Source: Chitinophagaceae bacterium
GTDB taxonomy: Bacteria > Bacteroidota > Bacteroidia > Chitinophagales > Chitinophagaceae
NCBI GenBank assembly: GCA_022843585.1
Contig: JALHNJ010000015.1
Span: forward strand, 1-64,000
Length of the DNA: 64,000 bases
Direction: 5' to 3'
Shown here: piece by piece, positions 12,621-42,206 of the stretch
Layout of the letters: every line of letters starts with the position of its first letter
Numbering within the stretch: position 1 is the stretch's first letter
Made by a program: the position numbers and the translations under genes
Notes under the pieces: generated by a model
Database searches by the model: none
The model's input: only the letters and a program-made list of their open reading frames with translations
Told to the model about the DNA's origin: nothing

Positions 12621-12657
12621 GAGAAGCTACGAGCTGTTAGCTATGAGCTACGAGCTT
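12621..12657. repeat. Heptad-phased repeat array, AGCT core, upstream of lspA
   Basis: AGCT occurs at 12625, 12632, 12639, 12646 and 12653, exactly every 7 bases, with variable three-base spacers (ACG, GTT, ATG, ACG). It sits between the lspA -7 box and the end of murF-alr. The same core is found in the array at 19205-19274. Confidence 0.75.
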
Positions 12658-12722
12658 GTGTCCTATTGTAAAAATTTAACTGCTGATTAAGTTTATTTAC
12701 AAATTCAGGCAGAAAGCGATCA

Positions 12723-15200
12723 TTATTCTTCAAAATAAACCCGTTTTACTCGTTGGGAAATACCAGTCATAATCTCATAAGGAATTGTTGATGCCCATTC
12801 TGCGATTTGTTGTACCGATATTTCATTTCCGAAAACAACTACCTCATCAGCTTCCTGCACTCCAGTAATATCCGTCACATCAATCATTATCATATCCATA
12901 CAAACAGTTCCAATAACTGGTGCCAATTTTCCTTTGACCAAAATTTTGCCTACACCATTTCCTAATCTTCTGGGATAGCCATCTGCATAACCGATCCGAA
13001 TAGTAGCAATTACAGAATCTCTACTTACTACTCCTTTTCTGTTATAACTAACCGAGTCGCCTGTCTTCAGATACTTTAATTGTGCTACAGTTGATTTAAG
13101 TGTAGCAACTGTTTGCAAATCTAATTTACCGGTAGCTGCGCTATCCACACCATACAATCCAATTCCTATTCTCACCATGTCCATTTGCAAATGCGGATGA
13201 CGAATAGCTGCTGCGGAATTAGCAATATGTTTTAAGAAGCTATATCCCAATCTTTCTTGTAATTGATTAGCTGCCTGTTGAAACTTTATTGCTTGCTCTT
13301 CAGTAAAAGCATCTTGTCCCTTTTCTTCGCCACCGGCCAAATGAGAAAAACAGCTTTGTATGTTAAAAGATGTAGTGGCCTTCAATTCAGTAGCAAGTTG
13401 CTCTATATCGCTTACGGAAAAACCGAGCCGGTTCATTCCTGTTTCTATTTCTATATGTACAGGATATTGTTGTAATGCCTGCGCTTTTAAGAACAAATCA
13501 AAAGCATGCAGCAATTGAAATGAATAAATTTCCGGCTCCAAATTATGCTCAACAATTGCTTCAAAGGCATTTTCTTCAGGGTTCATCACCATTATGGGAA
13601 GTGTGATACCGGCTTTTCGTAGCTCCACTCCTTCATCTGCATATGCCACACCCAAATAATCTACTTTCTGAAATTGCAAAACTCCTGCTATTTCTGCACC
13701 GCCGCTTCCATAGGCAAATGCTTTTACCATGGCCATTACCTTGGTAGCTGGTTGCAATATTTTTTGGTACTGCTTCAGGTTATGGGTCAGAGCATTCAAA
13801 TTAATTTCAAGAATGGTTTGATGTGCTTTTTGTTCCAGCAGCGGAACAATTTTTTCAAACTCAAAAATCCGGGCACCTTTTACCAGGATTGTTTCTTCTT
13901 TAAATTTTGAGAACCGATAATGCTGTAAAAATGATTCTGTACTGTTGAAATATTCCTGTGTAAGGGATGAACTTCCAAAAGCTATGGGCAGCAATGTTGA
14001 AATTCGTTCTCCTATTCCAATAACATGGTTAACGGAATGATTTTGCAATACATCAGCGATTTCTTCGTAGAGATCTTCGTCCTCCAGGCCGCTATGTAAA
14101 AAATCAGAAAGAATCACTGTTTTCTTTGTTCCGGCACTTTGATTAACAAGAAAGTTCAAGGCAATGTTCAATGAACTTAAATCGGCACTATAACTGTCAT
14201 TAATGATCGAGCAGTTATTAATTCCTTTCTTTAATTCAAGCCGCATGTTTACCGCATGCAGCTTTTCCATCCGATTTTCAATTATATCTGTTGAAACCCC
14301 AAGTTGTAACATTACTGCTGCACAGGTTATGGCGTTTTCAACTGAAGCATCATCTGTAAATGGAATTGCAACTTTTACAGTATTACTTTCAAAATCAATT
14401 TCAATGGTGGTTTGACCAGCTTCTTTGTCAATTGCTTTTACAACAAAATCGTTTTGGTCTCCAAATCCCCAGGTTTTCAGCTTGATCGCATCACCCAGCA
14501 TTTCTACAATGTCTTTTCTCCCTTCAAAATCAGCTTCTCTTCCAATAATTACTTCGCTATTCTTAAATAAAACCAGCTTCTCCCTAAACTTATGTTCTTC
14601 ATCATTAAATCCATCATTATGTGCCTCGCCAATATTTGTTAGTACTCCAATGGTTGGTTTGATGATTCTTTCTAACCGGATCATTTCACCCTGTTCAGAA
14701 ATACCAGCTTCAAAAATGGCTAATGTATGTTGTTCATTCATCTGCCATACACTTAGTGGCACACCTATTTGAGAGTTATAACTTTTAGGACTTCGTACGA
14801 TATTGAAATTTTCTTGCAAAAGTTGATAGAGCCATTCTTTTACCACTGTTTTTCCATTGCTACCAGAAATACCAATTACAGGGACTTTGAATTGTTGGCG
14901 ATGAAAAGCGGATATTTGCTGTAAAGCAACTAATGTATTATCAACCCAAAGAAAATTTGCTTCCGGATATAATGAAGCACTTATTAATTCACTCACTACA
15001 AAGTTTCTAACTCCTTTTTTATATAACTCAGGAATAAACTGGTGACCATCTCTTCGCTGGCTTTTAATAGCAAAGAACAAAGAGGTTGAGGGAGCATAAA
15101 CTTTTCGGCTGTCGAGTAAAAGATGTTCAAGTGTTACATCGCTTACAATTGTACTTTCAGCATCGATAATACGAGCAATATGACTGATTGAATAACTCAA
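12723..15200 (-). CDS. murF-alr: Bifunctional UDP-MurNAc-tripeptide:D-Ala-D-Ala ligase / alanine racemase
   Basis: 825-residue fusion of two consecutive steps in peptidoglycan precursor supply. Residues about 1-450 are MurF: P-loop GISGSNGKTVVKE at 110-122, SYNSQIGVPLSVW and EAGISEQGEM. Residues about 455-825 are the PLP-dependent alanine racemase: the lysine in MAMVKAFAYGSG (about 492), the base tyrosine in SYNRKGVVSRD (about 720) and GTVCMDMIMIDV. The fusion is common in Bacteroidota, so this is not an assembly artefact. The only usable start is TTG at 15200: an in-frame TAA lies two codons upstream and no ATG occurs for about 150 codons. It follows terC by 12 bases, so the weak start may rely on coupling. 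Confidence 0.93.
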   Translation of the reverse strand: MSYSISHIARIIDAESTIVSDVTLEHLLLDSRKVYAPSTSLFFAIKSQRRDGHQFIPELYKKGVRNFVVSELISASLYPEANFLWVDNTLVALQQISAFHRQQFKVPVIGISGSNGKTVVKEWLYQLLQENFNIVRSPKSYNSQIGVPLSVWQMNEQHTLAIFEAGISEQGEMIRLERIIKPTIGVLTNIGEAHNDGFNDEEHKFREKLVLFKNSEVIIGREADFEGRKDIVEMLGDAIKLKTWGFGDQNDFVVKAIDKEAGQTTIEIDFESNTVKVAIPFTDDASVENAITCAAVMLQLGVSTDIIENRMEKLHAVNMRLELKKGINNCSIINDSYSADLSSLNIALNFLVNQSAGTKKTVILSDFLHSGLEDEDLYEEIADVLQNHSVNHVIGIGERISTLLPIAFGSSSLTQEYFNSTESFLQHYRFSKFKEETILVKGARIFEFEKIVPLLEQKAHQTILEINLNALTHNLKQYQKILQPATKVMAMVKAFAYGSGGAEIAGVLQFQKVDYLGVAYADEGVELRKAGITLPIMVMNPEENAFEAIVEHNLEPEIYSFQLLHAFDLFLKAQALQQYPVHIEIETGMNRLGFSVSDIEQLATELKATTSFNIQSCFSHLAGGEEKGQDAFTEEQAIKFQQAANQLQERLGYSFLKHIANSAAAIRHPHLQMDMVRIGIGLYGVDSAATGKLDLQTVATLKSTVAQLKYLKTGDSVSYNRKGVVSRDSVIATIRIGYADGYPRRLGNGVGKILVKGKLAPVIGTVCMDMIMIDVTDITGVQEADEVVVFGNEISVQQIAEWASTIPYEIMTGISQRVKRVYFEE

Positions 15201-15212
15201 ATTTTAAAAAAA

Positions 15213-16178
15213 TTATTGGCTATCATCTGTAATATCTTCTGGTTCGCCTTTCTTCTGCATGAAAATGGAGTAAAATATTGAACCGGAGATACAAACCAGT
15301 ATTACTCCCAATGAAATAGCAACCTGTATTTGCTTATCAAGCACCTGGTTAATCCATTTTTCACAAAGCATTTTTATACCAATAAATACCAGTACTATCG
15401 CAATACCCTGTTGCAGGTAATCAAACTTGCTAACTGCGCCACGCAAAAGGAAGAATAATGAACGCAGGCCTAAAACAGCAAAAATATTAGATGTGTAGAT
15501 AACCAATTTATCTCTTGAAATACCCATTACTGCCGGAATTGAATCCAAAGCAAATACCAGGTCAATTGCTGCTAACATAATTACCACTACAAACAAACTG
15601 GTATAGAATTTTTTACCATCAATAACTACAGAATATTTACCATCCCCATCATGTGGAACTAGTGGCAAAATTCTTTTCATCCATTTATAGATCTTACTTT
15701 CTTCCGGCTTAAATTCTTCATCATCACTTGCCGTAAACATTTTATAACCTGTATAAACCAAGAAGACCCCGAATACATATAATATCCAATGGAACTTTTC
15801 TACTAATGCTACTCCCACTGTGATGAAAATAATTCTGAAAATAATGGCCATTAAAATTCCAGCCAGTAATACCCTTCCATAATTTTTCTCTTTTACAGAG
15901 AAGGCAGAAAAAATAAGTATAAAAACGAAGATATTGTCAATGCTCAGACTCCACTCCATCAGGTAGGCACTCAGGTATTCCAGCGCAAGACCCTGCCCTT
16001 TTTCTACCCACATAAAAACAAAAAAGGCCAGTGCCAGCCCAACCCAGAAAAATGTTTGATATAGTGCCTGGCGGATCGTTACTTTTTGCCCTTTTTTGCT
16101 GAGTAACCCAAGGTCAAATATTAAAGCCACCACTAGCACAATTCCAAAAACGAGATACGTAACTTGATCGGTTGTCAT
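15213..16178 (-). CDS. TerC/Alx-family integral membrane protein
   Basis: 321 residues with about nine hydrophobic segments. The TerC family signature AYLMEWSLSIDNIFVF is near residue 80, and a second acidic membrane motif (AAIDLVFALDSIPAV) near 208. Characterised members export manganese or act in tellurite and pH responses; here the substrate is inferred. The length matches Alx-type members. It is the first gene after the gldF-gldG pair and has its own -7 box. murF-alr follows 12 bases downstream, so the two are probably co-transcribed. Confidence 0.85.
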   Translation of the reverse strand: MTTDQVTYLVFGIVLVVALIFDLGLLSKKGQKVTIRQALYQTFFWVGLALAFFVFMWVEKGQGLALEYLSAYLMEWSLSIDNIFVFILIFSAFSVKEKNYGRVLLAGILMAIIFRIIFITVGVALVEKFHWILYVFGVFLVYTGYKMFTASDDEEFKPEESKIYKWMKRILPLVPHDGDGKYSVVIDGKKFYTSLFVVVIMLAAIDLVFALDSIPAVMGISRDKLVIYTSNIFAVLGLRSLFFLLRGAVSKFDYLQQGIAIVLVFIGIKMLCEKWINQVLDKQIQVAISLGVILVCISGSIFYSIFMQKKGEPEDITDDSQ

Positions 16179-16200
16179 CGGGAGTATTTAAATAAGAATG

Positions 16201-16231
16201 CAAAGATAAAGAGGAAGGCACAAGGCGCAAG
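16201..16231 (-). promoter_or_regulatory. Candidate terC promoter (TATCTTTG, with CTTG 19 bases upstream)
   Basis: On the minus strand TATCTTTG (16208-16201) matches the -7 consensus 22 bases before the ATG. CTTG at 16231-16228, spaced 19 bases, fits a -33 element and belongs to the AAGG heptad array, so the repeat may supply part of the promoter. Confidence 0.5.
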
Positions 16232-16240
16232 GGTCAAAGG
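16215..16240. repeat. Heptad-phased repeat array, AAGG core, upstream of terC
   Basis: AAGG occurs at 16215, 16222 and 16229 (period 7) and again at 16237 after one extra base. Units AAGGCAC, AAGGCGC, AAGGGTC, AAAGGTT. It fills the gap between the gldG stop and the terC -7 box. Confidence 0.65.
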
Positions 16241-17953
16241 TTATGCCGCATATTTTCTTTTTCTCACCTGCTGATAAATCCAGCCAGCAAGCAATACCAG
16301 TAAAATTGGTAAAGCGATATTCATGAACTGCCAGGTGCTTTTTTGTGCTTTTACTTTTTGTGAGTCCAATAAACGGAGAACGATGTCTTTACTCCTGGTT
16401 TCATTGATACCCGGCTTGTTTACCAGGTATTCAATACAGTTTTGCAGAAAATCTTTGTTGGCAAACTGGTATTCATATTGAGAGCCCATCGTATAAAAAT
16501 TAGTACCCATTGGTAATGGGCCTTCTTTGGGCGACACTTCGTTCAATAATATATCTCCATCACCCACTACTATCATCTTACCGGGTTCCTTACTCATTTC
16601 CATAAAAGGTGCGCCATAACCTGATAGGCTATCTAGCTGAGACTTGGAAATCTTGTTTCTGAATAAAGAAGTGAATTTTCCCTCCAGTAACATCGCAACG
16701 GGTATATTACTTTTGGTGAACTTAGCATCCTGCGGAGCATTTTTATTTTCATTCAGGCTTATCAATGCAGGGGTACTGATTATTCTTGAATTAGGAGAGG
16801 AAGACAATAAAACTGTTTTAGTAATACCGGGTGTTGCGATAGTATCGATTGAATTGACAAATCTTCCTTTTACTAATCCCATATTCTTAGTAACCGGGTT
16901 ATTATTAGAAGTGCCAAACAATGGGTAATAATTCCATTTCAAAAATTCAAACTGCGGATTTTCCTGCGTGCCACCAACTGCAAATGGCATATAATCACAA
17001 TCCAGGCTCATTACTAAATCCGGATTGATTCGAACGCCATACCTAAAAAGTTGATCGGTGAGATTAAGATCTCTATCGAAAGCAATTGTTTCTGTTGTAT
17101 AACGAAGGCTATCTTGTTCTGCTATCAGGTTATCAATAAACCACAACACTTTTCCTCCCCGCATTATGTATTGATCAATTTTCAGTTTTTGATCTTCTGT
17201 AAATTGTATCGTCGGTTTTACAATCAATAATACATCTGCTTCACCGGGAATCTGGTTTGTTGAAATATCAACCGGCCCAAACCTATAGTCTTGCGTTAAT
17301 GTTTGCTCAATGTCATATGCTTTAAGATCAGTAGGCTGTCCATTACCCATTGCATAAACTATCCCTGGAGCTTTTGCTTCCATCATTTTATCCAGCGTTT
17401 TTACAAACTGGTATTCCATCAATGCCTCAGCGCTGTTTATCTCATCTTGCGAAATGGCACCACTGGCTCTGGGATAAAGACTCACCAATGATTGCTTGCC
17501 TTTATACCGCATCAATGCCACAGGAAAAATAATATTACTGCTCTCACCTTCTTCTTTCTGAACGGTAAGATTGATTGGTATAGCACCTAATCCTACTAAT
17601 GAATCGCCATAAGTTTTTCGGCTATCCGGCATTTCCTCCTGCGGAGAAATAAAGCGATAATGAATTTTTGAACTATTCCGATCTTTCAATAATCCTAAAA
17701 ACTCTTCTGTACTATTGGCTAATTTTTTAAAGCCGGCCGGAAAATCTCCTTTCAAAAAAACATCTATCTGTACTTCTCCATCCAATTTTTTTAATAAATC
17801 CTTTGAGGCTTTCGTAAGCGTATATCTTTTTTCTTTGGTGAGATCGAACCGGGCATGAAAAGAAGAGGCCAGGTAATTAACCGCCAGCAAAATTACCAGC
17901 AGTATTACCCACCAGAATTTTGAAGCAACTATTTTATTTACCAGGTTACCCAT
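16241..17953 (-). CDS. gldG: Gliding motility ABC transporter auxiliary protein GldG
   Basis: 570 residues. GldG works with the membrane protein GldF and the ATPase GldA in gliding Bacteroidota. One N-terminal membrane segment (WWVILLVILLAVNYLA, about 14-29) is followed by LTKEKRYTLTKASKDLLKKL, typical of the family, a long extracytoplasmic region (ABC-type uncharacterised transport domain), and a C-terminal membrane helix (IALPILLVLLAGWIYQQV) with basic residues after it. Its ATG comes one base after the gldF stop, so the two are co-translated. gldA is not in the window. Strains vary in whether GldAFG is needed for gliding, so presence does not prove motility. Confidence 0.9.
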   Translation of the reverse strand: MGNLVNKIVASKFWWVILLVILLAVNYLASSFHARFDLTKEKRYTLTKASKDLLKKLDGEVQIDVFLKGDFPAGFKKLANSTEEFLGLLKDRNSSKIHYRFISPQEEMPDSRKTYGDSLVGLGAIPINLTVQKEEGESSNIIFPVALMRYKGKQSLVSLYPRASGAISQDEINSAEALMEYQFVKTLDKMMEAKAPGIVYAMGNGQPTDLKAYDIEQTLTQDYRFGPVDISTNQIPGEADVLLIVKPTIQFTEDQKLKIDQYIMRGGKVLWFIDNLIAEQDSLRYTTETIAFDRDLNLTDQLFRYGVRINPDLVMSLDCDYMPFAVGGTQENPQFEFLKWNYYPLFGTSNNNPVTKNMGLVKGRFVNSIDTIATPGITKTVLLSSSPNSRIISTPALISLNENKNAPQDAKFTKSNIPVAMLLEGKFTSLFRNKISKSQLDSLSGYGAPFMEMSKEPGKMIVVGDGDILLNEVSPKEGPLPMGTNFYTMGSQYEYQFANKDFLQNCIEYLVNKPGINETRSKDIVLRLLDSQKVKAQKSTWQFMNIALPILLVLLAGWIYQQVRKRKYAA

Positions 17954-17954
17954 A

Positions 17955-18674
17955 CTATCTTTTTAATAAGTTTCGGCTGGTGATAGCTAAAAATAGAAAT
18001 ATCACCGAGAGAAAATAAACAACATCTCTTGTATCGATCAATCCCCGGCTGATGCTGCGATAATGAAAATCAATACCAATCATTTCTACATAGTAATCGG
18101 CAGCATTCGCCAATGCCGGCAAGCGACTAATGGCACTAAATCCATAATAGATCAATGCACAACCAATGAGACTGACTATAAAAGCAACTACTGCATTATT
18201 GGTAAAACTGCTGCTGCAAATACTGATAGCCGTAAACACTGCCGCCAAAAAGAAAAGGCCAATATATGAACCAACAGTAGCTCCCATATCAAGTCCTTCA
18301 TTGGAAGAAAGACGTTGAATAGAAACGATATAAATTATAGTTGGAAGCAATGCGATCAGCACTACTAATAGACTGCCAAAGTATTTGCCAACAATTATTT
18401 GCCAGTGGCTAAGCGGACGGGTTTGTAATATTTCGTAGGTGCCGGTTTTAAATTCTTCGGCAAAACTGCGCATGGTAATAGCAGGTATCAACAGCAACAA
18501 TATCCAGGGAGCTAATTGAAAGAAACGATCTAAGGTGGCATAGCCAAAATCAAAGATGTTTTCATCAAAAACAAAAAGTACTAAGCCATTTACCAATAAA
18601 AAAACGGTAATGGCAATATAGCCGGTAAGGCTGCTAAAAAATTGACGAAGTTCTTTTTTACAAACGGACCACAT
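17955..18674 (-). CDS. gldF: Gliding motility ABC transporter permease GldF
   Basis: 239-residue inner-membrane permease of the ABC-2 type with six hydrophobic segments. MWSVCKKELRQFFSSLTGYIAI at the N-terminus and MRSFAEEFKTGTYEILQTRPLSHWQIIVGKY are typical of GldF. The ATG at 18674 is chosen; a TTG 14 codons upstream would lie within the AAGG repeat array and add unrelated residues. It pairs with gldG directly downstream (one-base gap). Upstream is the AAGG heptad array and then the terminator of the isc cluster, so it likely starts its own transcript. Confidence 0.9.
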   Translation of the reverse strand: MWSVCKKELRQFFSSLTGYIAITVFLLVNGLVLFVFDENIFDFGYATLDRFFQLAPWILLLLIPAITMRSFAEEFKTGTYEILQTRPLSHWQIIVGKYFGSLLVVLIALLPTIIYIVSIQRLSSNEGLDMGATVGSYIGLFFLAAVFTAISICSSSFTNNAVVAFIVSLIGCALIYYGFSAISRLPALANAADYYVEMIGIDFHYRSISRGLIDTRDVVYFLSVIFLFLAITSRNLLKR

Positions 18675-18700
18675 AGAAGTGCTGCAAAATAAGTAATAAA

Positions 18701-18728
18701 AAGGTACAAGGCACAAGGTTCAAGGACC
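18701..18728. repeat. Heptad-phased repeat array, AAGG core, upstream of gldF
   Basis: AAGG occurs at 18701, 18708, 18715 and 18722, exactly every 7 bases (AAGGTAC, AAGGCAC, AAGGTTC, AAGGACC). A near-consensus -7 sequence (TTATTTTG on the minus strand, 18691-18684) lies 10 bases downstream in the direction of gldF, like the terC layout. Confidence 0.75.
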
Positions 18729-18785
18729 AACTCTTGCTGTTTGAAGTAACATTTCAATTTTTAAGAGCTTGGGTACCTATACAAA

Positions 18786-18808
18786 TAAAAAATCCCCAAT
18801 TACGGGGA
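18786..18808 (-). terminator. Terminator after iscA
   Basis: Read on the minus strand, TCCCC and GGGGA form a short GC stem around GTAATT, followed by TTTTTTATTTG. It lies about 30 bases after the iscA-like stop and closes the isc transcript. Confidence 0.75.
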
Positions 18809-18838
18809 CTCAATATTTCATTTCGGGATTTAATCTAT

Positions 18839-19192
18839 TTAAACAGCGAAACTTTCGCCACAGCCACAGGTTCTGCTGGCGTTGGGATTACTAAAGTAAA
18901 AACCTTTACCATTTAACCCATCTGAAAAATCCAGTGTGGTGTTTACCAGGTACAAAAAGCTTTTTAAATCAGTTACCACTTTTACACCATTGTCTTCAAA
19001 TGACTGGTCCATTGGTTTTTGCTCATTATCAAAATCCAATTTATAACTAAGGCCCGAACAACCCCCTCCTACAACACTCACCCGCAGGAAATAAGAAGGG
19101 TCGTCTGCCACGCCAGCATCTGCCAATAGCTGAGCTACTTTGGCTTTGGCCTTATCGCTTACATATATTGCGTTATCTAATGCTACACTCAT
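18839..19192 (-). CDS. iscA: A-type iron-sulfur carrier (IscA/HesB family)
   Basis: 117 residues. A-type carriers receive Fe-S clusters from the scaffold and pass them to target proteins. The three conserved cysteines are present, one in VGGGCSGLSY and two in the C-terminal RTCGCGESF. The protein is last in an iscS-iscU-iscA order and followed by a terminator. Whether it is functionally IscA, SufA or ErpA cannot be told from sequence; the iscA symbol follows context. A heptad inverted-repeat element separates it from iscU. Confidence 0.9.
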   Translation of the reverse strand: MSVALDNAIYVSDKAKAKVAQLLADAGVADDPSYFLRVSVVGGGCSGLSYKLDFDNEQKPMDQSFEDNGVKVVTDLKSFLYLVNTTLDFSDGLNGKGFYFSNPNASRTCGCGESFAV

Positions 19193-19204
19193 ACTTCTGA
19201 CTTT

Positions 19205-19274
19205 GAGTTATGAGCTTCGAGCCTCGAGCCGAAACAGTCAAACCAAAGTCTCGCAGCTCATAGCTATCAGCTCA
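19205..19274. repeat. Heptad-phased inverted-repeat element between iscU and iscA
   Basis: The left arm has GAG at 19205, 19212, 19219 and 19226; the right arm has CTC (once CTA) at 19250, 19257, 19264 and 19271. Both step exactly 7 bases. Arms are complementary (TTGAGTTATGAGCTTCGAG against CTCGCAGCTCATAGC and TCAGCTCAAGG), with about 20 bases of loop, so the transcript can fold into a long hairpin. Confidence 0.75.
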
Positions 19275-19282
19275 AGGCTTTC

Positions 19283-19702: not shown

Positions 19703-19708
19703 TTTCTA

Positions 19709-19781
19709 AAGTTTTAAGTTTTAAGTAATAGGTAATAAGTTTTCGTCGCAAGCAATGCTTACAACTTATAACTTACCACTT
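19709..19781. repeat. Heptad-phased inverted-repeat element between iscS and iscU
   Basis: Left arm: AAGT (once AGGT) at 19709, 19716, 19723, 19730 and 19737. Right arm: ACTT (once GCTT) at 19757, 19764, 19771 and 19778. All steps are exactly 7 bases. The two arms face each other around TTCGTCGCAAGCAA and lie directly upstream of the iscU start. Confidence 0.8.
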
Positions 19782-20998: not shown

Positions 20999-21031
20999 AA
21001 TCTTGTAATTATTCGTTTTTGTTTCTAATAG

Positions 21032-27965: not shown

Positions 27966-28685
27966 TTATTGTGCAATTTTCAATAAAGAGCAAATCTGTG
28001 CATAAGACATAGCTTTTAGTTGGCTTTCGCTGTAAAGCTGGCCATTAATCTCTGCTACCTTTTCATTATTACCACGACCACCAGCTACGCCCCCCGGAAT
28101 AATTACATATCTTAATTCGCCACCTCCGTTTAATCCTACGCTAGTAGAAGCACCGTTGAGTGCTGCTCTGAAATAAATAATTTTTCCTACAGCTCCCCAT
28201 TGTCCAATTATTGCCGGTGCAGTGGCTGCGCCGCTATAATATGTATATGGTAAAGACACAACACCTGCAGTTGAGCCACCAACTCTCCAATAAGAGATTA
28301 TTACGCCTTGATCTAGAATTGCTTGTGTAACACCCGGTGCAGGTCTAATCCAACGACGAATTGTGCCTGGGTAATCAGGATGGGTTGTATCGGCTGCAGG
28401 AATTGCAGCTTCTAAAGCAGTAATTGTTGTCCAAGTAGAATAAATAACGTTCGCTGTTCCAGTAGGACCTTGAGGACCAGTTGCTCCAGCAGGACCTTGT
28501 GGGCCAGTTGCTCCTGCAGGGCCACTAGGGCCAGTAGCACCGGTTGCACCCGTTGCACCATTTACACCAGCAGGACCTTGTGCACCATTTGCACCAGCAG
28601 GGCCTTCAGGACCTTCTTTTGTACAACTAACGGCTAAAAATGTAATCGCTAAAGCTAAAATTGAGAGTAGATTGAACTTTCTCAT
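27966..28685 (-). CDS. Collagen-like repeat lipoprotein
   Basis: 239 residues. A lipoprotein signal ([21 protein letters not shown], Cys 21) is followed directly by 18 Gly-X-Y triplets (residues about 25-78: [16 protein letters not shown] onward), then a globular domain of about 160 residues ([12 protein letters not shown]..., [18 protein letters not shown]...). Bacterial Gly-X-Y tracts form triple helices, so a trimeric surface stalk anchored to the outer membrane is likely. The globular head is not recognised. It is a single gene with its own terminator, divergent from an outer-membrane barrel gene. Confidence 0.88.
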
Positions 28686-33906: not shown

Positions 33907-33954
33907 AGCCGTTCTAAAATGGTGGCGAAGTTACGGAAATAAAAGCCCGGACGG

Positions 33955-34040
33955 AAAGACTAAAAGACAGAAAGTCCGAAAGACCTTTTCCTTAGGAAAA
34001 TAATCTTTCGGACTCCCGTTATACCGTGTTTTCGGACTAT
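33955..34040. repeat. Octad-phased repeat array with nested hairpin upstream of ileS
   Basis: AAAG occurs at 33955, 33963, 33971 and 33979 (period 8). The opposite arm has TTTCGGACT at 34006 and 34030, 24 bases (three units) apart. AGTCCGAAAGA pairs perfectly with TCTTTCGGACT, and the loop contains a second stem, TTTTCC-TTA-GGAAAA. It fills the gap between the DUF6607 stop and the ileS start and may terminate the former. Confidence 0.7.
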
Positions 34041-35007: not shown

Positions 35008-35019
35008 GACATTAGTATG

Positions 35020-35047: not shown

Positions 35048-35056
35048 CAAAACGAA

Positions 35057-35087
35057 AAAAGGCCAACCTCTAACAGGCAGGCCTTTT
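35057..35087 (-). terminator. Terminator after the HmuY-like gene
   Basis: AAAAGGCC and GGCCTTTT form the stem, followed on the minus strand by TTTTTTCG. It lies 18 bases after the stop and separates this gene from the DUF6607 gene. Confidence 0.75.
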
Positions 35088-35104
35088 GAAATCTTCGGCA
35101 CATA

Positions 35105-36502
35105 TTATCCTTTTTTCACTAATACTGTTTGGTAGGCGGGGTAGCCTCGTTCGCCACCTTGAGATAATCCGGTGAATTTAAGTTTGTAATAATTATTATC
35201 ACCATCCTTTACAATGTAGTAGCGGTCAGTTTTTGCTGCTGCCGCAGGGAAAGTGGCTCTCCAATCAGCACCAATTTTAATTTGAGAAGTTGAGAAAGTT
35301 TGTGCAGCAATATCACTTTCAGCAAAAGCATCAAATGTTTTAGTTGCAACAAGTACAGTAGCTACTTCTACATTCCTGTTTTGAATAATAATATCCTGGT
35401 ACAGGAATGGAGCTTCGGCTGCACCTGTACCGAATGTATTGGTGAAATAGGTCCAGGCAATATCCCATTTCTTTTTCTGTGGCTCTACACTTACAGCTCC
35501 GTTTTCAAAAGAAATATATTTAAAGAAATAAGAATCATCTTTTGCAATATCAATGCTTGAAAAAGTAGTAGCTGAAATATCAGCATGCTGCAATGTATAA
35601 CCACCACCTGCATTTCTTATAATGCGAACTTTCTTCCAACCTCTTGCTGGCGCAGGAGAACCAACACCTACACCACGGTTAATGATATAAACTTTATTAT
35701 CAGTAGCTGCTGCAGCAATTGGAGCAATAGCTATTCTTGTTAAATCGCCGGTTGGATAATCGATATACGGCAATGTAGCCGGGTTTACGCCAAAGCTGCC
35801 TATGGTCATCTCATTTCCAAAACCTATAGTATCTGCAGCTGTTACTGTGTTTAAATCATTCTTCGCAATTTGTTTCGCCATCATTGCTGTTGATGAATTT
35901 AAAATAACCCGAAAATCAGTTGCATCAGTATAGAAGCCCAAATCCCAGTTGGTACGTAATACAGGAGTTTGACGATTAGCACTCAAATCAACAAACACTT
36001 TATTTGGATAAGTAACGCCGCCGCCGTTTAATGTAAGCGAAGCAGTAGTAGCAACCAATTCAGCAAAATCTAACGACAAACGTTTCTGAGCGCCGATAAA
36101 TACAGGAGTGCCAGAGCTATAAATATCAAATAATAATTTTTCATCTCCATCGAATAATGCACCGGGTAGCTTTGTAAGTGTAAAACTAGCTTCATTATTT
36201 CCAGAAGGAACTATGAGTTCAATTTTACCTGCTGTTGCCGCTGGCGATGTAACGAAATCAGTACCATATATAGCACCTTGTTCTGTTAGGTTAATTGTAA
36301 CCGGAATATCTCTGTCCGTACCCCGCACTAATTTTACTTTGATAGTTATGTTTGATTCTGCTGCAGTAATTCCTTGAGCAGAAGCTTCAAAATTTACTAA
36401 GTTATCTGCTAATTCAGCCGCATCTCTTTTTCTGCATCCTGTTATAAGTATTACAGCTATAAGTAGTGCTGTTATTGATTTTATCGTATTCATCTTATTC
36501 AT
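35105..36502 (-). CDS. HmuY-like heme-binding lipoprotein with N-terminal Calx-beta-like domain
   Basis: 465 residues from ATG 36502 (36493 is also possible). Lipoprotein signal (TIKSITALLIAVILITGC, Cys 23). Residues about 30-160 resemble a Calx-beta domain (VNFEASAQG...ITAAESNITIKVKLVRG, YGTDFVTSPAA, FDGDEKLLFDIY). The rest resembles HmuY: NKVFVDLSANRQTPVLRTNWDLGFYTD at about 175, then a beta-rich domain ending GGERGYPAYQTVLVKKG. HmuY proteins take heme at the cell surface and hand it to the receptor. The gene starts 22 bases after the receptor stop, so both are co-transcribed. Heme ligands cannot be assigned by eye. Confidence 0.8.
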   Translation of the reverse strand: MNKMNTIKSITALLIAVILITGCRKRDAAELADNLVNFEASAQGITAAESNITIKVKLVRGTDRDIPVTINLTEQGAIYGTDFVTSPAATAGKIELIVPSGNNEASFTLTKLPGALFDGDEKLLFDIYSSGTPVFIGAQKRLSLDFAELVATTASLTLNGGGVTYPNKVFVDLSANRQTPVLRTNWDLGFYTDATDFRVILNSSTAMMAKQIAKNDLNTVTAADTIGFGNEMTIGSFGVNPATLPYIDYPTGDLTRIAIAPIAAAATDNKVYIINRGVGVGSPAPARGWKKVRIIRNAGGGYTLQHADISATTFSSIDIAKDDSYFFKYISFENGAVSVEPQKKKWDIAWTYFTNTFGTGAAEAPFLYQDIIIQNRNVEVATVLVATKTFDAFAESDIAAQTFSTSQIKIGADWRATFPAAAAKTDRYYIVKDGDNNYYKLKFTGLSQGGERGYPAYQTVLVKKG

Positions 36503-36524
36503 TTCAGTTAGATTTATATTGATT

Positions 36525-38591
36525 TTATTTTTTATCCCAGTTGAAAACAAGTCCAGTAAAGAAGGAACGGCCATTGGCAATATTTCTAATACCATCTCCA
36601 CTTCCATGTGTACCGCCATCTGCATAATTGCTACCAATCCTGCCTACATCAAACAGGTTTCTGATACCTGCATTTAATGAGAAGTATTTGAACAGTTTTT
36701 TATTTAGTGTGAAATCAGCCATGTGATAACCCTCCTGCTCTGTTAGTACTACATCCTGTGTCCCTGTCTTTATTGCATAGAAAGGTTTTTTACCGGTGAA
36801 TTTGTAAAACAGGTTAGCATCCAAACCAATCTTTGAAAACTTGTACCCAATTGTTGAGTTCACTTCTGCTGACCATTGCAGTTGCGGTAGCTCTTCATCA
36901 GCTTCTGAATAAGCGTTATAGAAACCAGTGTAGCCTGCACCCAACGAAATATTCCATTGCTTGTGTTTGATATTTGTTGCCAGCGTAGCTCCTGCTGTTC
37001 GGCTGTTCGAAACATTCATCAACCTGGCAGTATCTGAAGCCGCACTAAAAGCATAGTCAATCAGGTTTTTTACATTATTATAAAAGCCGCCCAAAGTGGT
37101 CGAGTAAACCAGTTCGTTTTTATTTGCTTTTTTCCAGGTTAACGAGCCGTTGAAACTATGAGATGTTTCTGCTTTTAAATCTGGGTTACCAACGATCTGG
37201 TGATTGGCATCAAAGAAATTGAAATATAATTCTCTTAATGATGGGGAACGAAATCCTCTTGCATACGATAAACGCAAATCAAGATTGTTAGCTAATACAA
37301 ATTTTGTGTTGATAGAAGGGATTACAGGTGGTGCATCATATACTGAGTTTCTGATAACCCTGATTCCCGGACGGATGCTCACTTTGGAGGATGGTGTAAT
37401 TTCTGATGTAAGAAAAAATGCATAATCATTTACTTCATTATTGCCTTCTTTCAAACGTTGACCTTCGCCGCTTTCTAAATTAATATCAACACCTGGCTGA
37501 AAAGAAATTAGTGAAGACAATTTATAATAAACGGTACCCCGAAAATTTAATCCTTTTATTTTATCAAGACTTTGCTCTTTGGGAGCAGCGATAGTTACTT
37601 GCTTTGTACGCTGACTTACGTTGGTTGAATATACCTGCCTGCTATAATCAGTATAAGAAGCTTGTCCCTGAAATGATAAGTCATTATTGAAAACATACGA
37701 GCCTTGCAATTGCTGCATTACTCTGCGGCTAAGATATTCCTGGTCGAATGCCAACTTATCTCCAGCCTCCGGATAGTCGATTAAAAAATTGCCCGGGTTG
37801 TAAAGAACTTCATCCAATCCATCAAAACGATAACGAAGATTCAGTTTGCCTTTTGTATATCCAACAAATCCATTGGCCAATAATTGGTCTTTATTATGCC
37901 ATACTAATTCTCTTTCAACCGCTGTGTCCTTCCAGCCACCAAAATAGTTATGGCCAAAGCCGCCACCCAGTTCCCAGTTTTTATGTCTCCATGTAAGCCC
38001 GAGATATTGATTATGGATACCTGCTGACAGGTTATTTGCACCCGGTTTCAGGCTATACTCTTTACCAATTGTTTCTTCATGTACTCTTGCTGTAACAGAA
38101 AATTTTGTGGCACCCCCTTTTTTAGTAATGATGTTTATTACACCTGCTAAAGCATCAGCACCGTACACAACAGACATGGGACCTTCTACAATTTCTATTC
38201 GTTCAATAGAGTTAATATCAACCTGGTTAATATTTATTTCGTTGGTCGCTCCCTGTCTTCCTACCATTGGCACACCATCTAATAAAATTTTTACGTTTTG
38301 TCCGGGTAATCCCATCATCGTAATACCAGAGCCACCAGTAGCAAGGTCCTGGTCGAACCGAATATTCAATTCGTTGTTCAATACGTCCTGCAGTTTTGCA
38401 GCCCCTTGTTGTTGAATTCTTTCTTTGGAAATAGTGCGAACCTGGTAAACAGAATTTTTTACTGATTGTGGTTTGTATTGACCAGTAATTACTACTCCTT
38501 CTAAATCTTTTGCTTTTGTAGTGTCTTCTTGTGCTGAAATTGTTCCTGCTATTAATAATAAAGCAAGAGCAATGCTGTATTTTTTTCTCAT
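36525..38591 (-). CDS. TonB-dependent receptor, HmuR-like (heme uptake)
   Basis: 688 residues. Signal peptide (MRKKYSIALALLLIAGTISAQ), then the TonB box/plug (LEGVVITGQYKPQSVKNSVYQV, KLQDVLNNELNIRFDQDLATG, IERIEIVEGPMSVVYGADALAGVINIIT) and a barrel containing YARGFRSPSLRELYFNFFDANHQIVGNPDLKAE. The FRSPSLRELY...NPDLKAE segment resembles the FRAP/NPDL region of heme receptors, with a histidine (DANHQ) beside it. There is no N-terminal carboxypeptidase-like domain, unlike SusC. Followed by the HmuY-like lipoprotein. Upstream is a 300-bp region with dyads that probably carries its promoter and operator. Confidence 0.88.
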   Translation of the reverse strand: MRKKYSIALALLLIAGTISAQEDTTKAKDLEGVVITGQYKPQSVKNSVYQVRTISKERIQQQGAAKLQDVLNNELNIRFDQDLATGGSGITMMGLPGQNVKILLDGVPMVGRQGATNEININQVDINSIERIEIVEGPMSVVYGADALAGVINIITKKGGATKFSVTARVHEETIGKEYSLKPGANNLSAGIHNQYLGLTWRHKNWELGGGFGHNYFGGWKDTAVERELVWHNKDQLLANGFVGYTKGKLNLRYRFDGLDEVLYNPGNFLIDYPEAGDKLAFDQEYLSRRVMQQLQGSYVFNNDLSFQGQASYTDYSRQVYSTNVSQRTKQVTIAAPKEQSLDKIKGLNFRGTVYYKLSSLISFQPGVDINLESGEGQRLKEGNNEVNDYAFFLTSEITPSSKVSIRPGIRVIRNSVYDAPPVIPSINTKFVLANNLDLRLSYARGFRSPSLRELYFNFFDANHQIVGNPDLKAETSHSFNGSLTWKKANKNELVYSTTLGGFYNNVKNLIDYAFSAASDTARLMNVSNSRTAGATLATNIKHKQWNISLGAGYTGFYNAYSEADEELPQLQWSAEVNSTIGYKFSKIGLDANLFYKFTGKKPFYAIKTGTQDVVLTEQEGYHMADFTLNKKLFKYFSLNAGIRNLFDVGRIGSNYADGGTHGSGDGIRNIANGRSFFTGLVFNWDKK

Positions 38592-38646
38592 AATTATTTG
38601 CTTGCGGATGCAAAAGTGATTAACTGCAGATTAAGTTTTATCATAC

Positions 38647-38729
38647 TTATGTCAGGAGTCTTGATTTTAAATTTGTTTTACAAACAAATGACGCTACCAG
38701 GTAACAAATCATTTTTCCTACTGACATAA
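38647..38729. promoter_or_regulatory. Nested inverted repeats upstream of the HmuR-like receptor
   Basis: Outer arms TTATGTCAG (38647-38655) and CTGACATAA (38721-38729) are perfect 9-bp complements; inside lies a 19-bp dyad, ATTTGTTT-TAC-AAACAAAT (38671-38689). They lie 56-138 bases upstream of the receptor ATG. An operator for an iron or heme regulator is the likely reading; no regulator gene is adjacent. The remainder of 38592-38890 shows only single TTACG and terminator elements. Confidence 0.5.
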
Positions 38730-38844
38730 ATCATGTTGATTTAAAAAAGTTTTGCAAATGTGGTCTGCCAGAGAGAATATGCAATGCTGTATTGGGAAAA
38801 AGACTTACGCAAAAAGGAAACTGACTTTATAATGACAATAAAAA

Positions 38845-38870
38845 AAGGCTGCTCTTTTCAGAACAGCCTT
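38845..38870 (-). terminator. Terminator after the DUF4920 gene
   Basis: AAGGCTG and CAGCCTT with a TC/GA extension around TTTTCA, followed on the minus strand by TTTTTATTG. It lies 20 bases after the stop. Confidence 0.78.
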
Positions 38871-38890
38871 CATTTATAAGGAAGCTTTTA

Positions 38891-39367
38891 TTATTCTACA
38901 ATTACAATACCTTTTGCCTCTACTCTTACCTCTTTCTTGGGTTCAGTAATTTTAGCGATCTCTTCTTTTGATTTTTTTGCATCTTCTGCATAGTGCTTTA
39001 ATTCAGCCACAGAAGTTGTTTTCATTTTCATTTCGCCGTCAATCACAACTGTTTTGCCAATTGCTGCTACTGGTAAAAAGAAACCATAATCTTTCATTTT
39101 CACCATAGCTGTTTCTCCATTCGCTAATTCAAGCTTTAACCAGCAGCCTTTTTTAGGGCATACATCCGTTATTTTAGCTTTGATTTTACCGTCCACTTTA
39201 TCATTCCCCTCACTCAATTTTGCAACAGCATCATTGATTGCAACTGCGCCTTCTGTTGAAACTTTTTCACCATACCAATCACCGGGTTTTGCATCGCCAG
39301 CCGGAGGTTGTGCATATGCTACCACTCCAAAAGCGGCAACTACTAATGTCAGCAATAATTTTTTCAT
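38891..39367 (-). CDS. DUF4920 domain secreted protein
   Basis: 158 residues with a signal peptide (MKKLLLTLVVAAFGVVAYAQ). The domain is recognised by WYGEKVSTEGAVAINDAVAKL and KIKAKITDVCPKKGCWLKLELANG with its CxxxxC pair, then VKMKDYGFFLPVAAIGKTVVIDGEM. The OB-like domain and the conserved cysteines suggest a periplasmic metal or redox role, but function is unknown. It has its own -7 box and terminator and lies downstream of a di-heme peroxidase gene. Confidence 0.78.
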   Translation of the reverse strand: MKKLLLTLVVAAFGVVAYAQPPAGDAKPGDWYGEKVSTEGAVAINDAVAKLSEGNDKVDGKIKAKITDVCPKKGCWLKLELANGETAMVKMKDYGFFLPVAAIGKTVVIDGEMKMKTTSVAELKHYAEDAKKSKEEIAKITEPKKEVRVEAKGIVIVE

Positions 39368-39402
39368 GTTTATGTTTTTTCTGATTTTAAAAGTTTGGAC
39401 AG

Positions 39403-39410
39403 CAAAGATA
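39403..39410 (-). promoter_or_regulatory. Candidate -7 box of the DUF4920 gene
   Basis: TATCTTTG on the minus strand matches TAnnTTTG, 35 bases before the ATG and just after the peroxidase stop. The -33 element is not clear. Confidence 0.45.
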
Positions 39411-39432
39411 GCTTTTAGTCGGAAATAGTTGC

Positions 39433-40476
39433 CTAATCAGGGATAACAGGTTTAATAAAAGGTTCTGCCGGCGAGGAAATGGCCCTTAGAAACGCAATCA
39501 ATCCTTCTATTTCCTTAGAGCTAAAGGGTTTTAATAGCGGACTGCCTGGCGGGCCTTTCCTATACAACTCCATTATTGTAAGCATATCACTAATACTTCC
39601 ATCATGCATCCAAGGACCTGTATACATTACATCTCTCAGGGATGGGGTTTTAAATTTTTGTCTGTCTTCTTCTTTATGAGTTGTGTTATAAAGACCATTA
39701 TCTACAGGCCCGAAACTCAAATTAGTTCTATGAAACAAGTTGTCGGTAAACATTGATCCATTGTGGCAATTCATACAACCCGTCTTTGTGCGAAAAGCAT
39801 GCAGCCCCTTAAGTTCCTGCTCTGTTAAAGCATTTTTGTTTCCTTCTAAAAATTGATCAAACCGGCTCTTACTGCTTATAATAGTTTTTTCAAATGTTGC
39901 AATCGCCTCGGCCATTTTATCCGGATTTATTTCATCACTATCAAAGGCTTTTTTGAAAAGTTCTTTGTAGCCGTTTATTCGCCGAAGCTTTCGCATTACA
40001 TCCGGCATGTCACTATGCATTTCAGAGGAACTGTTGATAGGGGCAAATGCCTGGTCTTGCAAACTGCTTGAGCGGCCATCCCAAAAAAGTCTTTTATAAA
40101 ACCAGCTGTTTTGAATGGTTGGAGAATTTCTTTTGTTAATGGCGCCTTCATGACCCAATGATTTTTCTATTCCATCTGTCCAGTTAAGTTCTGGTTTATG
40201 ACAAGTTGCACAACTGATTTTTTCAGAGCCGCTCAATCTTGTATCAAAAAATAATGCTTTGCCGAGCTCCACTACATTTTTTACAGAATCATTTTGTAAA
40301 TCAACCGGACTTGCAGGAAGAACGGCTAATTCTGTCCATTGCACTCCTGCATCAACAAGAGGTTTGGGCCATTCTGAGGAAGGACGGGAATAAATATCCC
40401 GAAGACTTTCTTTAGAAAAAGAAATACAAACAGTAACGACTGCTGCCAATAATATAATAACAAACCATTTTCTCAT
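39433..40476 (-). CDS. Di-heme cytochrome c peroxidase (MauG/CcpA family)
   Basis: 347 residues with an N-terminal export signal (MRKWFVIILLAAVVTVCISF). Two c-type heme sites: CATCH (89-93) and CMNCH (about 233). PSLRDVMYTGPWMHDGSISDMLTIMELY near the C-terminus, with a distal-type histidine/methionine segment, is typical. Family members reduce hydrogen peroxide in the periplasm or oxidise protein side chains. It is preceded by SET and nitroreductase genes on the same strand with short gaps, suggesting one transcript. Confidence 0.88.
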   Translation of the reverse strand: MRKWFVIILLAAVVTVCISFSKESLRDIYSRPSSEWPKPLVDAGVQWTELAVLPASPVDLQNDSVKNVVELGKALFFDTRLSGSEKISCATCHKPELNWTDGIEKSLGHEGAINKRNSPTIQNSWFYKRLFWDGRSSSLQDQAFAPINSSSEMHSDMPDVMRKLRRINGYKELFKKAFDSDEINPDKMAEAIATFEKTIISSKSRFDQFLEGNKNALTEQELKGLHAFRTKTGCMNCHNGSMFTDNLFHRTNLSFGPVDNGLYNTTHKEEDRQKFKTPSLRDVMYTGPWMHDGSISDMLTIMELYRKGPPGSPLLKPFSSKEIEGLIAFLRAISSPAEPFIKPVIPD

Positions 40477-40501
40477 TACTGATTAATCAGAAAGTAAATC
40501 G

Positions 40502-40933
40502 TTAAATAAAACCTCTACAGTTTTTTGCACCGCAACGACAAGGTAATTTTCCATCATGATGTGTTTCACCATAATCACAACTCAACTCCTGCCCTTTCTT
40601 GATATTCTTCAATGCATAAAATTCTACTCTATTCTTCATCACCCGTAAGTAAGTGTTAGGACCGCAAGAATGATTGATAAAACGCATATCATTGGAATTG
40701 GCCGATGCGTTCAATGCAAGATCATCATCCAGTTCAACCAGATTAATAACTTTCAAATTATTTATCAATCGCATTGCCTCTTTCATGGTTATGATAACGC
40801 CGCCAAGGTCGCCGATCTTTTTCCGGGCAGGGATACGCTGCAAGGCATAAGCACCCATACCTGCAATTTTACTCTTGGCCACTTTTACCGGGTAATGAAT
40901 TTTATATTCCGGAGTGATGATTTGTTTGGGCAT
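40502..40933 (-). CDS. SET-domain protein (putative lysine methyltransferase)
   Basis: 143 residues, essentially a bare SET domain. Seen: SKIAGMGAYALQRIPARKKIGD (GxG motif), RFINHSCGPNT at 84-94 (SAM binding), ELSCDYGE at 116-123 (catalytic tyrosine) and a post-SET-like cysteine cluster CRCGAKNCRG at 132-141. With Cys 90 these cysteines could hold a zinc as in eukaryotic enzymes. It has no signal peptide, so a cytoplasmic protein substrate is expected, identity unknown. It sits between nitroreductase (3-base gap) and peroxidase genes. Confidence 0.82.
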   Translation of the reverse strand: MPKQIITPEYKIHYPVKVAKSKIAGMGAYALQRIPARKKIGDLGGVIITMKEAMRLINNLKVINLVELDDDLALNASANSNDMRFINHSCGPNTYLRVMKNRVEFYALKNIKKGQELSCDYGETHHDGKLPCRCGAKNCRGFI

Positions 40934-40936
40934 TGT

Positions 40937-41518
40937 TTATTCGTTTATCCAGGTTGTTTTTTCTTCAATAGGTTTTCTTGTAGCACCGGTAGATGAAATG
41001 GCAATATGGCCGATGTAAAAAAAGCCAAGCAATTTATCTTCTTCGTCTAATCCAAAAAACTCTTTTGCTTGTTCTTTATACGTAACGCCACCAGTTGTCC
41101 AGTAACCACCTAATCCATACGCCGTAACAGAAAGATATAAATTTTGCACTGCACAAGACACGGCTGCTACATCTTCTATCTCCGGAATATTTTTACTATT
41201 GGTTCTCTTCATACCAATTGCAATAATATGAGAAGCTTTGAGTGGATTTTGCTGCAGTTTGCTGTAAGTTATTTCTTTGAAATTTTCGCCGGCTAATTCT
41301 TTATACAATTCGCTTTGAAAAGTAGCCAGCTTTTTCAACCCTTCGCCGCTAAAAACGGTGAAATGCCAAGGCTCTTGTTTTCCATGATTAGGTGCCCAAC
41401 TGGCATTGATCAATATTTCTTTTATGATCTCATCATCTACTTTTTTTCCAGCCTCTAATTGATCGGGAAAAGTGGAACGACGGCTGCGGACTAAATCATT
41501 AAACAAATCAGGATTCAT
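40937..41518 (-). CDS. Nitroreductase family FMN enzyme
   Basis: 193 residues. MNPDLFNDLVRSRRSTFPDQLEAGKKV, ASWAPNHGKQEPWHFTVF and the AVQNLYLSVTAYGLGGYWTTGG block are typical of the small NfsB/YdjA-like nitroreductases, FMN-dependent dimers that use NAD(P)H. The C-terminus (EEDKLLGFFYIGH) is complete. The physiological substrate is not known. First gene of a putative nitroreductase-SET-peroxidase transcript. Confidence 0.88.
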   Translation of the reverse strand: MNPDLFNDLVRSRRSTFPDQLEAGKKVDDEIIKEILINASWAPNHGKQEPWHFTVFSGEGLKKLATFQSELYKELAGENFKEITYSKLQQNPLKASHIIAIGMKRTNSKNIPEIEDVAAVSCAVQNLYLSVTAYGLGGYWTTGGVTYKEQAKEFFGLDEEDKLLGFFYIGHIAISSTGATRKPIEEKTTWINE

Positions 41519-41532
41519 AGTTGTTATTTAAG

Positions 41533-41540
41533 CAAAAATA
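41533..41540 (-). promoter_or_regulatory. Candidate -7 box of the nitroreductase gene
   Basis: TATTTTTG on the minus strand matches TAnnTTTG, 14 bases before the ATG. No -33 element seen. Confidence 0.4.
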
Positions 41541-41599
41541 AAGGTCGTTGTCTAATTGAAGGCCGCTTATTTATTTTAACTTACATAAAATTTATTACT

Positions 41600-42109
41600 A
41601 TGGTATCGAAACCAATACAAGAAGCCCTGAACAAACAAGTACAAATGGAAGCTGAATCATCTCAAGCTTACCTGGCAATGGCGTCCTGGGCAGAAATACA
41701 ACCGGGTTTAGAAGGTGTTTCCAATTTCTTCTATCAGCAATCTGATGAGGAAAGAGTGCATATGCTAAAACTACTTCGCTTTATTAATGAAAGAGGCGGA
41801 TTTGCAGTAGTGCCGGAACTGCCACAGCCAACATTAACCTTTACGTCACTTAAAAAATTATTTGAAGAGTTTTTGAAACATGAATTGAAAGTTAGTGACA
41901 GCATTAATGACCTTGTTCATCTTTCGCTTACAGAAAAAGATTATGCTACACATAATTTTCTACAGTGGTATGTAAACGAACAGATAGAAGAAGAACGTAG
42001 TGCCCGTACACTAAATGATAAACTGGAAATGATTGGTGATGATAAAAGCGGATTGTATCTTTTTGACAGAGATATTATGAACTTCAGAGGAGCTGGAGGA
42101 AAGAAATAG
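41600..42109 (+). CDS. ftnA: Non-heme ferritin
   Basis: 169 residues, iron-storage protein of the 24-mer ferritin family. Ferroxidase ligands are visible in NKQVQMEAESSQAYLAMASW (E17), SDEERVHMLKLLRF (E51 and H54) and the later helix EKDYATHNFLQWYVNEQIEEE. The C-terminus FDRDIMNFRGAGGKK is typical of Bacteroidota ferritins. Single gene. Its TAG stop overlaps the first unit of a heptad inverted-repeat element. Confidence 0.93.
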   Translation: MVSKPIQEALNKQVQMEAESSQAYLAMASWAEIQPGLEGVSNFFYQQSDEERVHMLKLLRFINERGGFAVVPELPQPTLTFTSLKKLFEEFLKHELKVSDSINDLVHLSLTEKDYATHNFLQWYVNEQIEEERSARTLNDKLEMIGDDKSGLYLFDRDIMNFRGAGGKK

Positions 42110-42206
42110 TCAGGAGTCTTTAGTCGGGAGTCAGAGACTTTTAGAATAATCGATCTTTTATAATTCTGACTACCGACTAAGGACTAAAGACTCATGATTA
42201 AAGACT
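42108..42206. repeat. Heptad-phased inverted-repeat element between ftnA and a TonB receptor
   Basis: Left arm: AGTC at 42108, 42115, 42122 and 42129. Right arm: GACT (once GATT) at 42168, 42175, 42182, 42189, 42196 and 42203. Every step is 7 bases. Facing arms (AGTCTTTAGTCGGGAGTCAGA against TCTGACTACCGACTAAGGAC) can form a hairpin between two convergent genes. The right arm runs into the last codons of the receptor gene. Confidence 0.82.

Follow-up and report, generated by a model that had tools for sequence, protein, structure and literature searches.

Degenerate intergenic heptanucleotide repeats, some with facing arms, in a Chitinophagaceae genome and their counterparts in Bacteroidota

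The window, i.e., the whole stretch of 64,000 nucleotides analysed here (positions 1 to 64,000 of contig JALHNJ010000015.1, our C15), belongs to the 4.49 Mb genome of a Chitinophagaceae bacterium (the "own" genome, G000) and carries, in the gaps between its genes, arrays of short degenerate repeats, mostly seven bases long and in part facing an inverted arm. The closest relatives of its IscS are mostly from Chitinophagaceae, and from other Bacteroidota. The first array, at 12625–12656, consists of AGCT-NNN heptads (AGCTACG AGCTGTT AGCTATG AGCTACG AGCT) and lies between genes that we take to be lsp-like and murF/alr-like. AAGG-NNN heptads are found at 16215–16240 and, with the same core, at 18688–18730; none of these three arrays has a facing arm. 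In the iscU–iscA gap, a left arm of GAGC/AGCT heptads at 19204–19230 (GAGC being the AGCT word read one base earlier) faces a right arm at 19247–19272 (...AGCTCATAGCTATCAGCT), and in the iscS–iscU gap the AAGT heptads at 19709–19740 form one arm, facing the other (CTTACAA CTTATAA CTTACCA CTT) at 19758–19781. A period-8 array of the GAAAGACT/GAAAGTCC type lies with its facing arm at 33950–34014, and similar sequences can be aligned at other own-genome loci. Finally, between convergent genes, a left arm of AGTC heptads (AGTCAGGAGTCTTTAGTCGGGAGTC) at 42108–42135, beginning within the stop codon of the left gene, faces GACT heptads at 42165–42209; 22 bases of the 42.1 kb arm recur exactly at another locus. 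The core families of the window are AGCT (12.6 and 19.2 kb), AAGG (16.2 and 18.7 kb), AAGT, AGTC and the period-8 GAAAGACT-like family.

A sequence-only reading of the window had described six of these loci as period 7 and one as period 8, and all seven exceed shuffles of their own gaps at those periods (33.95 kb being the period-8 locus). Each gap was compared with 1000 first-order shuffles of itself, taking the best of periods 5–12, and P for any period is <0.001 at 12625–12656, 0.034 at 16215–16240 (the weakest of the seven, with 0.002 for period 7 alone), 0.003 at 18688–18730, 0.004 at 19204–19230, <0.001 at 19709–19740, 0.002 at 33950–33985, and 0.001 at 42168–42197. The inverted arms reported at four loci hold up as well in a comparison with 100 shuffles: 19206–19224/19247–19265 (P < 0.01), 19709–19725/19758–19774 (P 0.01), 42115–42135/42165–42185 (P < 0.01) and, at the period-8 locus, 33973–33990/33996–34014 (P 0.03). 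At 12.6, 16.2, and 18.7 kb, arms are not above chance in the same number of shuffles (P 0.57, 0.60, and 0.76). Five heptad-array gaps fall within the 7.2 kb between 12.6 and 19.8 kb, the whole 1.6 Mb gap sample introduced next having 36 gaps that score at least 11.

The lag test against shuffled gaps that had been proposed with that reading gives a clear excess at period 7. It was run on 885 gene-called gaps of the own genome (126.6 kb, from about 1.6 of the 4.49 Mb, the window included) and on 804 gaps from 80 orthologous contigs of relatives, with genes called by a home-made codon score, not an established gene finder, and with N-containing gaps excluded; in raw lag scans, N runs (about three in the sample of the relative G112, one in L067) add about that many counts per lag. 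At scores of at least 13, period 7 occurs in 27 own gaps against 3.2 in shuffles, and at scores of at least 15 in 18 against 1.0 expected. At the lower threshold period 8 has 6 against 1.8, and periods 4, 5, 6, 9, 10, 11, 12, and 13 have 2, 0, 1, 2, 0, 2, 0, and 0 against 3.5, 1.0, 2.0, 1.5, 1.5, 0.8, 1.2, and 0.0, while the multiples are also raised (period 14, 11 against 1.5; period 16, 5 against 1.0). The relatives have period 7 in 40 gaps against 3.0, period 8 in 20 against 3.2 and period 9 in 10 against 3.5, the remaining lags from 4 to 13 being close to the null. Twenty stretches from 20 genomes of the phylum, a non-random sample that includes coding sequence, three stretches placed on known AGCT sites (L239, L242, and L248) and four contigs shorter than asked (2–8 kb), hold 19 period-7 segments scoring at least 13, every other period from 5 to 13 having 1 to 8; the small control, 50 kb of E. 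coli K-12, holds zero period-7 segments scoring at least 11. In the broad sense, the window arrays are intergenic heptamer repeats, with a tandem 7-nt unit above chance and seven preferred over other lengths.

Many relatives keep the iscS–iscU–iscA operon and the genes downstream of it in synteny, so that the gaps can be compared between species. Such a comparison, first suggested for sister strains, was made with related species (no close strain of the own genome was among the relatives searched); these are not close, with iscU–iscA DNA 70–84% identical in the genus, and being distant they do not let the order and speed of the changes be read. The comparison yielded 233 orthologous gaps, after exclusion of gene pairs that were missing, truncated, overlapping, differently oriented or more than 400 bp apart, as well as of gaps with GldF. 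Among the 139 of at least 40 bp, 43 reach P ≤ 0.02 for periodicity, where chance would give about 3. The 43 include four gaps of the window itself, and the best period is 7 in 25, 8 in 14, 9 in 2, 6 in 1, and 11 in 1. The repeat words differ from species to species. At iscS–iscU the AAGT heptads of the own genome have as counterparts an 8-base AAGTTGAT type (L046), a 9-base GTTGATTAA type (L048), AATTAGC-type octads (L054, L068, and L071), and GAGTTAT-type heptads in Hymenobacter (L119), and in L047 and L121 the gap is just 27–35 bp, without repeats or hairpin. The recurrent property at orthologous gaps is the length scale.

Each core had been taken to be specific to its locus, which is ruled out by the recurrence of cores between loci. 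We searched for exact three-unit heptads on both strands, with the core word read backwards as the control; overlapping three-unit windows were counted apart, so matches outnumber arrays. AGCT heptads have 18 matches in 12 arrays of the own genome and AGTC heptads 59 matches, the control being 0 for both, and they occur in 79 (AGCT) and 90 (AGTC) of 195 family genomes. AGCT reaches 779 matches in G112 and is present in 40 of 148 genomes of the phylum sample. The control is not always empty (TCGA, 176 matches in G117; CTGA, 577 in G112), because these words are themselves heptad families there. Related arms can be traced between own-genome loci by alignment, and word sharing across genomes is modest (293 pairs agreeing at 6/7 or better vs. 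216–246 when shuffled). Three further ideas about the cores were tried and dropped. Letter palindromes such as AGCT, ACGT, and TCGA are not their basis, the self-complementarity of 168 consensus heptads being not clearly above that of letter-shuffled words (z 1.9; own 0.5, G112 0.5). Nor do the arrays serve to place stop codons in all frames, seven not being a multiple of three, as GAGTTCG, AAGGCAC, and TACGTTG are, by eye, stop-free on both strands. Shared spacer order is weak as proof of copying: P is 0.064 for own AGTC, 1.0 for own AGCT, 0.014 for G112 AGCT, and 0.05 for G117 AGCT, out of ten tests uncorrected for multiplicity, the other six having P 0.37–1.0.

How the arrays change in length can be seen in G112, where an AAAGCCT array lies inside a dispersed element and a 2 kb query containing it matches 138 stretches of the genome. 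In an anchored search allowing any span from 22 to 52 bases, 23 copies share the same two exact anchors; the span is 42 bases in 9 of them, 49 in 8, 35 in 5, and 41 in 1, i.e., whole 7-base steps separate the array lengths in 22 of the 23. For independent copies this gives P 5e-18; the copies share ancestry, however, and perhaps only two or three separate length events lie behind them. Median identity is 89% for their left flanks, counting the exact anchor, and 68% for the more variable right flanks. Units of this array are gained and lost whole, and together with the period-7 excess this bears out the proposal that the period is conserved and that units are copied one by one. The accompanying claim that common descent does not explain the arrays stands only in part, as descent explains some of them, at least in G112 with its array inside a dispersed element. 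Identity between G112 units falls with their distance, from 5.44 through 5.14 and 4.86 to 4.28 of 7 bases at distances 1 to 4 and to 3.67 at distance 7, the lag-7 search itself being biased toward similar neighbouring units. The seven columns differ from one another more than under permutation (G112 z 22.2, own z 7.0), and a simulation of duplication with uniform mutation matches the column variance in G112 (0.029 vs. 0.0297). A strict constraint on core against spacer was therefore rejected, most of the column heterogeneity being reproduced by that simulation. The G112 element itself is about 300 bp long and apparently non-coding, short heptad arrays (AAAGCCT, then TTCACCA/TTGACCA) being linked by conserved stretches; it is found at C1:97441–97750 and many other sites (loci L225–L232 and L253–L275).

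In the relatives, inverted repeats in periodic gaps outnumber and outscore those of shuffles. Counts of inverted repeats, stem mismatches and gap context cover gaps of 40–300 bp only, and for the latter two intermediate-score gaps were dropped. Inverted repeats scoring at least 14 occur in 14/36 period-7 gaps of the relatives vs. 1.7 in shuffles and in 17/20 period-8/9 gaps vs. 0.3; in the own genome strong ones occur in 4/25 period-7 gaps vs. 0 and in 2/6 period-8/9 gaps vs. 0. Non-periodic gaps too exceed their shuffles (own 62/667 vs. 6.3, relatives 53/586 vs. 10.7). Divergent gaps are under-represented among arrays (6/87 vs. 288/1253). One 21 kb contig of a relative has inverted pairs of AACGTTTAAACGTT-type heptads at several places (L048:3551–6200), one of them with arms of about 70 bp.

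On balance, we think it probable that the arrays are heptad repeats grown by slippage and blurred by mutation, with arms made by local fold-back or template switching. An array would start when a short stretch of 7 bases, or more rarely 8 or 9, happens to be duplicated in tandem, and would grow or shrink in whole units through slippage in DNA synthesis (or unequal recombination; of the two we infer slippage), while point mutations would make the units diverge. Inverted arms may come from fold-back of the nascent strand, or from template switching, inside one gap. Carriage within dispersed elements, or short exchange, would bring some arrays to further loci and leave a genome with a handful of favoured cores. 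Arrays would persist where they do little harm, in co-directional or convergent and less often in divergent gaps, presumably close to neutral there, and would be quickly replaced. The best reading is of intergenic heptanucleotide repeats, degenerate and mostly neutral, belonging to a kind found across Bacteroidota; the arrays seem to be a widespread by-product of DNA copying that changes fast, not a dedicated new system.

Several observations weigh against this account. The whole-unit change comes from G112, not from the window's own genome. Column variance in the own genome is slightly above the simulation (0.036 vs. 0.033), and fully conserved columns exceed it at similar divergence in both genomes (G112 4.13 vs. 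3.48, own 3.88 vs. 3.09). Loci share consensus words at 6/7 or better more often than letter-shuffled words do (439 pairs vs. 88–107 in G112, 27 vs. 14–22 in own), an excess not predicted by purely local slippage. The link between arms and heptads rests mainly on the relatives: with non-periodic own gaps also rich in arms, period-7 gaps hardly have more (4/25 vs. 62/667), and the extra contribution of the heptads in the own genome is therefore small. The 5′ arm is G-rich in 40/48 co-directional periodic hairpins, the 82 non-periodic hairpins having 37 G-rich, 38 C-rich, and 7 equal 5′ arms and the 12 convergent or divergent cases splitting 5:5 with 2 equal on a measure that is strand-symmetric by construction. 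Periodic hairpins also almost fill their gap, with medians of 4 nt from the stop to the hairpin and 11.5 nt from the hairpin to the next start, compared with 17 and 44 nt for non-periodic ones. Slippage by itself does not account for the shared cores, the G-rich 5′ arms or the hairpins that fill gaps.

The last two features would fit a selection of the arms as RNA hairpins between co-directional genes, joining the stop to the next start in the mRNA or protecting or attenuating the transcript, with the heptads as mere building material, and RNA folding agrees in that z is below −2 in 19/43 periodic orthologous gaps (13/24 at iscS–iscU, 5/11 at iscU–iscA, 1/6 at murF–lsp, 0/2 at gldG–terC). We nevertheless regard such selection as rather unlikely. 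Across the 48 co-directional periodic stems, G.T mismatches (42) and A.C mismatches (43) are about equal, so the transcribed strand is not favoured; this is no sign of selection on the hairpin of the transcript through stem-keeping G-U pairs, and the RNA contact suggested earlier finds no backing in it. Moreover, three of the six period-7 loci of the window lack an arm above chance, the short iscS–iscU gaps of L121 and L047 do without a hairpin, and the G-poor right arm may simply follow base composition: upstream of starts G is at 0.136 and C at 0.179, and a G-poor requirement there could cause the arm polarity. The shared cores and the excess of conserved columns would instead suit recognition arrays, in which the repeated cores are bound, in a 7-nt register, by a protein or RNA and are genome-specific through co-evolution with this binder; the recurrence of AGTC and AGCT over the genome and over genera speaks for this. 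But one genome holds several unrelated cores, core or period changes between species at one and the same gap, single runs drift through several cores, and no binder was identified, none having been searched for, all of which leaves recognition unlikely. A broader proposal, distinctly unlikely to our minds, has dedicated machinery with a 7-nt register, either a template-copying enzyme or a word-selecting binder, write or keep the arrays, with a small genome-specific core vocabulary that recurs across Bacteroidota genera and facing arms placed to fill co-directional gaps. For the hairpin-copying enzyme once suggested there is no evidence here, and no search was aimed at one.

Persistence of palindromic arrays might also reflect loss of SbcCD, a complex that cuts DNA hairpins and whose nuclease subunit is SbcD. 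SbcD matches at E ≤ 0.001 in 94 of the 195 family genomes but exceeds the cut-off in just 26, and the match of the own genome, at 20.7 bits vs. a cut-off of 77.65, is weak. AGCT or AGTC heptads occur in 8/26 genomes with SbcD vs. 115/169 without (Fisher P 0.0004). The contrast is not significant at 10 or more matches (4/26 vs. 48/169, P 0.23) or inside the 12 genera that have both kinds of genome (6 to 4, with two ties), so shared ancestry may explain the association, which we do not rely on, and arrays without arms would not be SbcCD targets. Loss of the nuclease is very unlikely as the cause. Least credible of all is a Y1 (RAYT) transposase that moves REP-like palindromes. The families are indeed intergenic, palindromic and dispersed, and PF01797 has a match in 143/195 family genomes, but the own genome has none at E ≤ 0.001, yet it carries 59 AGTC and 18 AGCT pattern matches; REPs are not known to be built of tandem heptad arms. 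For the own genome, barring an unrecognised transposase, this explanation is largely refuted.

The sequence-only reading had named no described system of this form. Intergenic heptanucleotide repeats, with slippage proposed, are already published (PMC4679880, PMC4692102), with examples in Xanthomonas, Nostoc, Calothrix, Beggiatoaceae, and five Bacteroidetes. Among long simple sequence repeats of prokaryotes, heptanucleotides are reported to be the most abundant category in most genomes, and polymerase slippage, with seven as the length held by the polymerase, was suggested (Mrazek et al., 2007, via PMC4679880 and PMC4692102); the same may be the reason for seven in the arrays here. Those repeats are series of one word that exceed the length expected by chance, whereas the window arrays have degenerate units, often 4–5 copies and often facing arms, and with adjacent units sharing about 5.4/7 bases, short of a near-perfect single word, they are not classed with them. 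Closer are the GGGAATC/GGGANTN heptamers of Xanthomonas and GGGGA(C/T)T of Nostoc (Rehm et al., 2015, PMC4692102), which are likewise largely intergenic, with runs of a few units that are perfect or heterogeneous, partly conserved positions, occasional inversion, and length and sequence that vary between the same genes of related species. The work on them covers one G-rich, G-quadruplex-type family for each organism, whereas here each genome has several families and even the word is exchanged for another from species to species. The TAACTGA repeats of Beggiatoaceae, cyanobacteria, and five Bacteroidetes, two of which had other heptamers in the same gaps (MacGregor, 2015, PMC4679880), are also seven-base intergenic direct repeats, many sets lying near start codons, but consist of one exact heptamer nearly without inverted sets (169 direct vs. 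one indirect in the main genome). REP palindromes resemble the arrays in lying between genes in many copies; they measure 20–40 bp and carry a GTAG or CGTC tag on one side (PMC3733652). A Y1 transposase gene is unmatched in the own genome. In open-licence PMC papers we found no account of such repeats as multi-core, degenerate and facing-arm arrays across Bacteroidota, a weak statement of absence.

If the slippage account is correct, the intergenic DNA of much of the phylum mutates in a fast 7-base rhythm that is blind to sequence, hairpins and motif arrays between Bacteroidota genes need not be regulatory, and the dominance of heptamers among long bacterial repeats becomes testable in cultivable Bacteroidota, the richer genomes having dozens to hundreds of arrays. 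Clear experimental targets are the features for which slippage alone does not suffice, namely the facing arms, the shared core vocabulary, and the gap-filling placement.

The own genome also contains dispersed intergenic sequences that are not heptad-like (GTTGCGTCGCACTCTTGTACGTTC... and a likely reverse), aligning over 60–94 bp at 77–83% identity and probably forming one family, a 16-base piece of which has zero copies in the window. They lie at C1:465767–465961, C1:203723–203788, C1:687194–687268, C1:145431–145492, C2:347283–347530, C2:308182–308241, C4:110727–110819, and L162:3796–3881. Strong 9-base periodicity is found at 28518–28616 of the window and likewise in relatives at L045:3203, L047:3044, and L048:4775; in these relatives it reads as repeated GGT-CCT type codons, presumably collagen-like, some kilobases before iscS.

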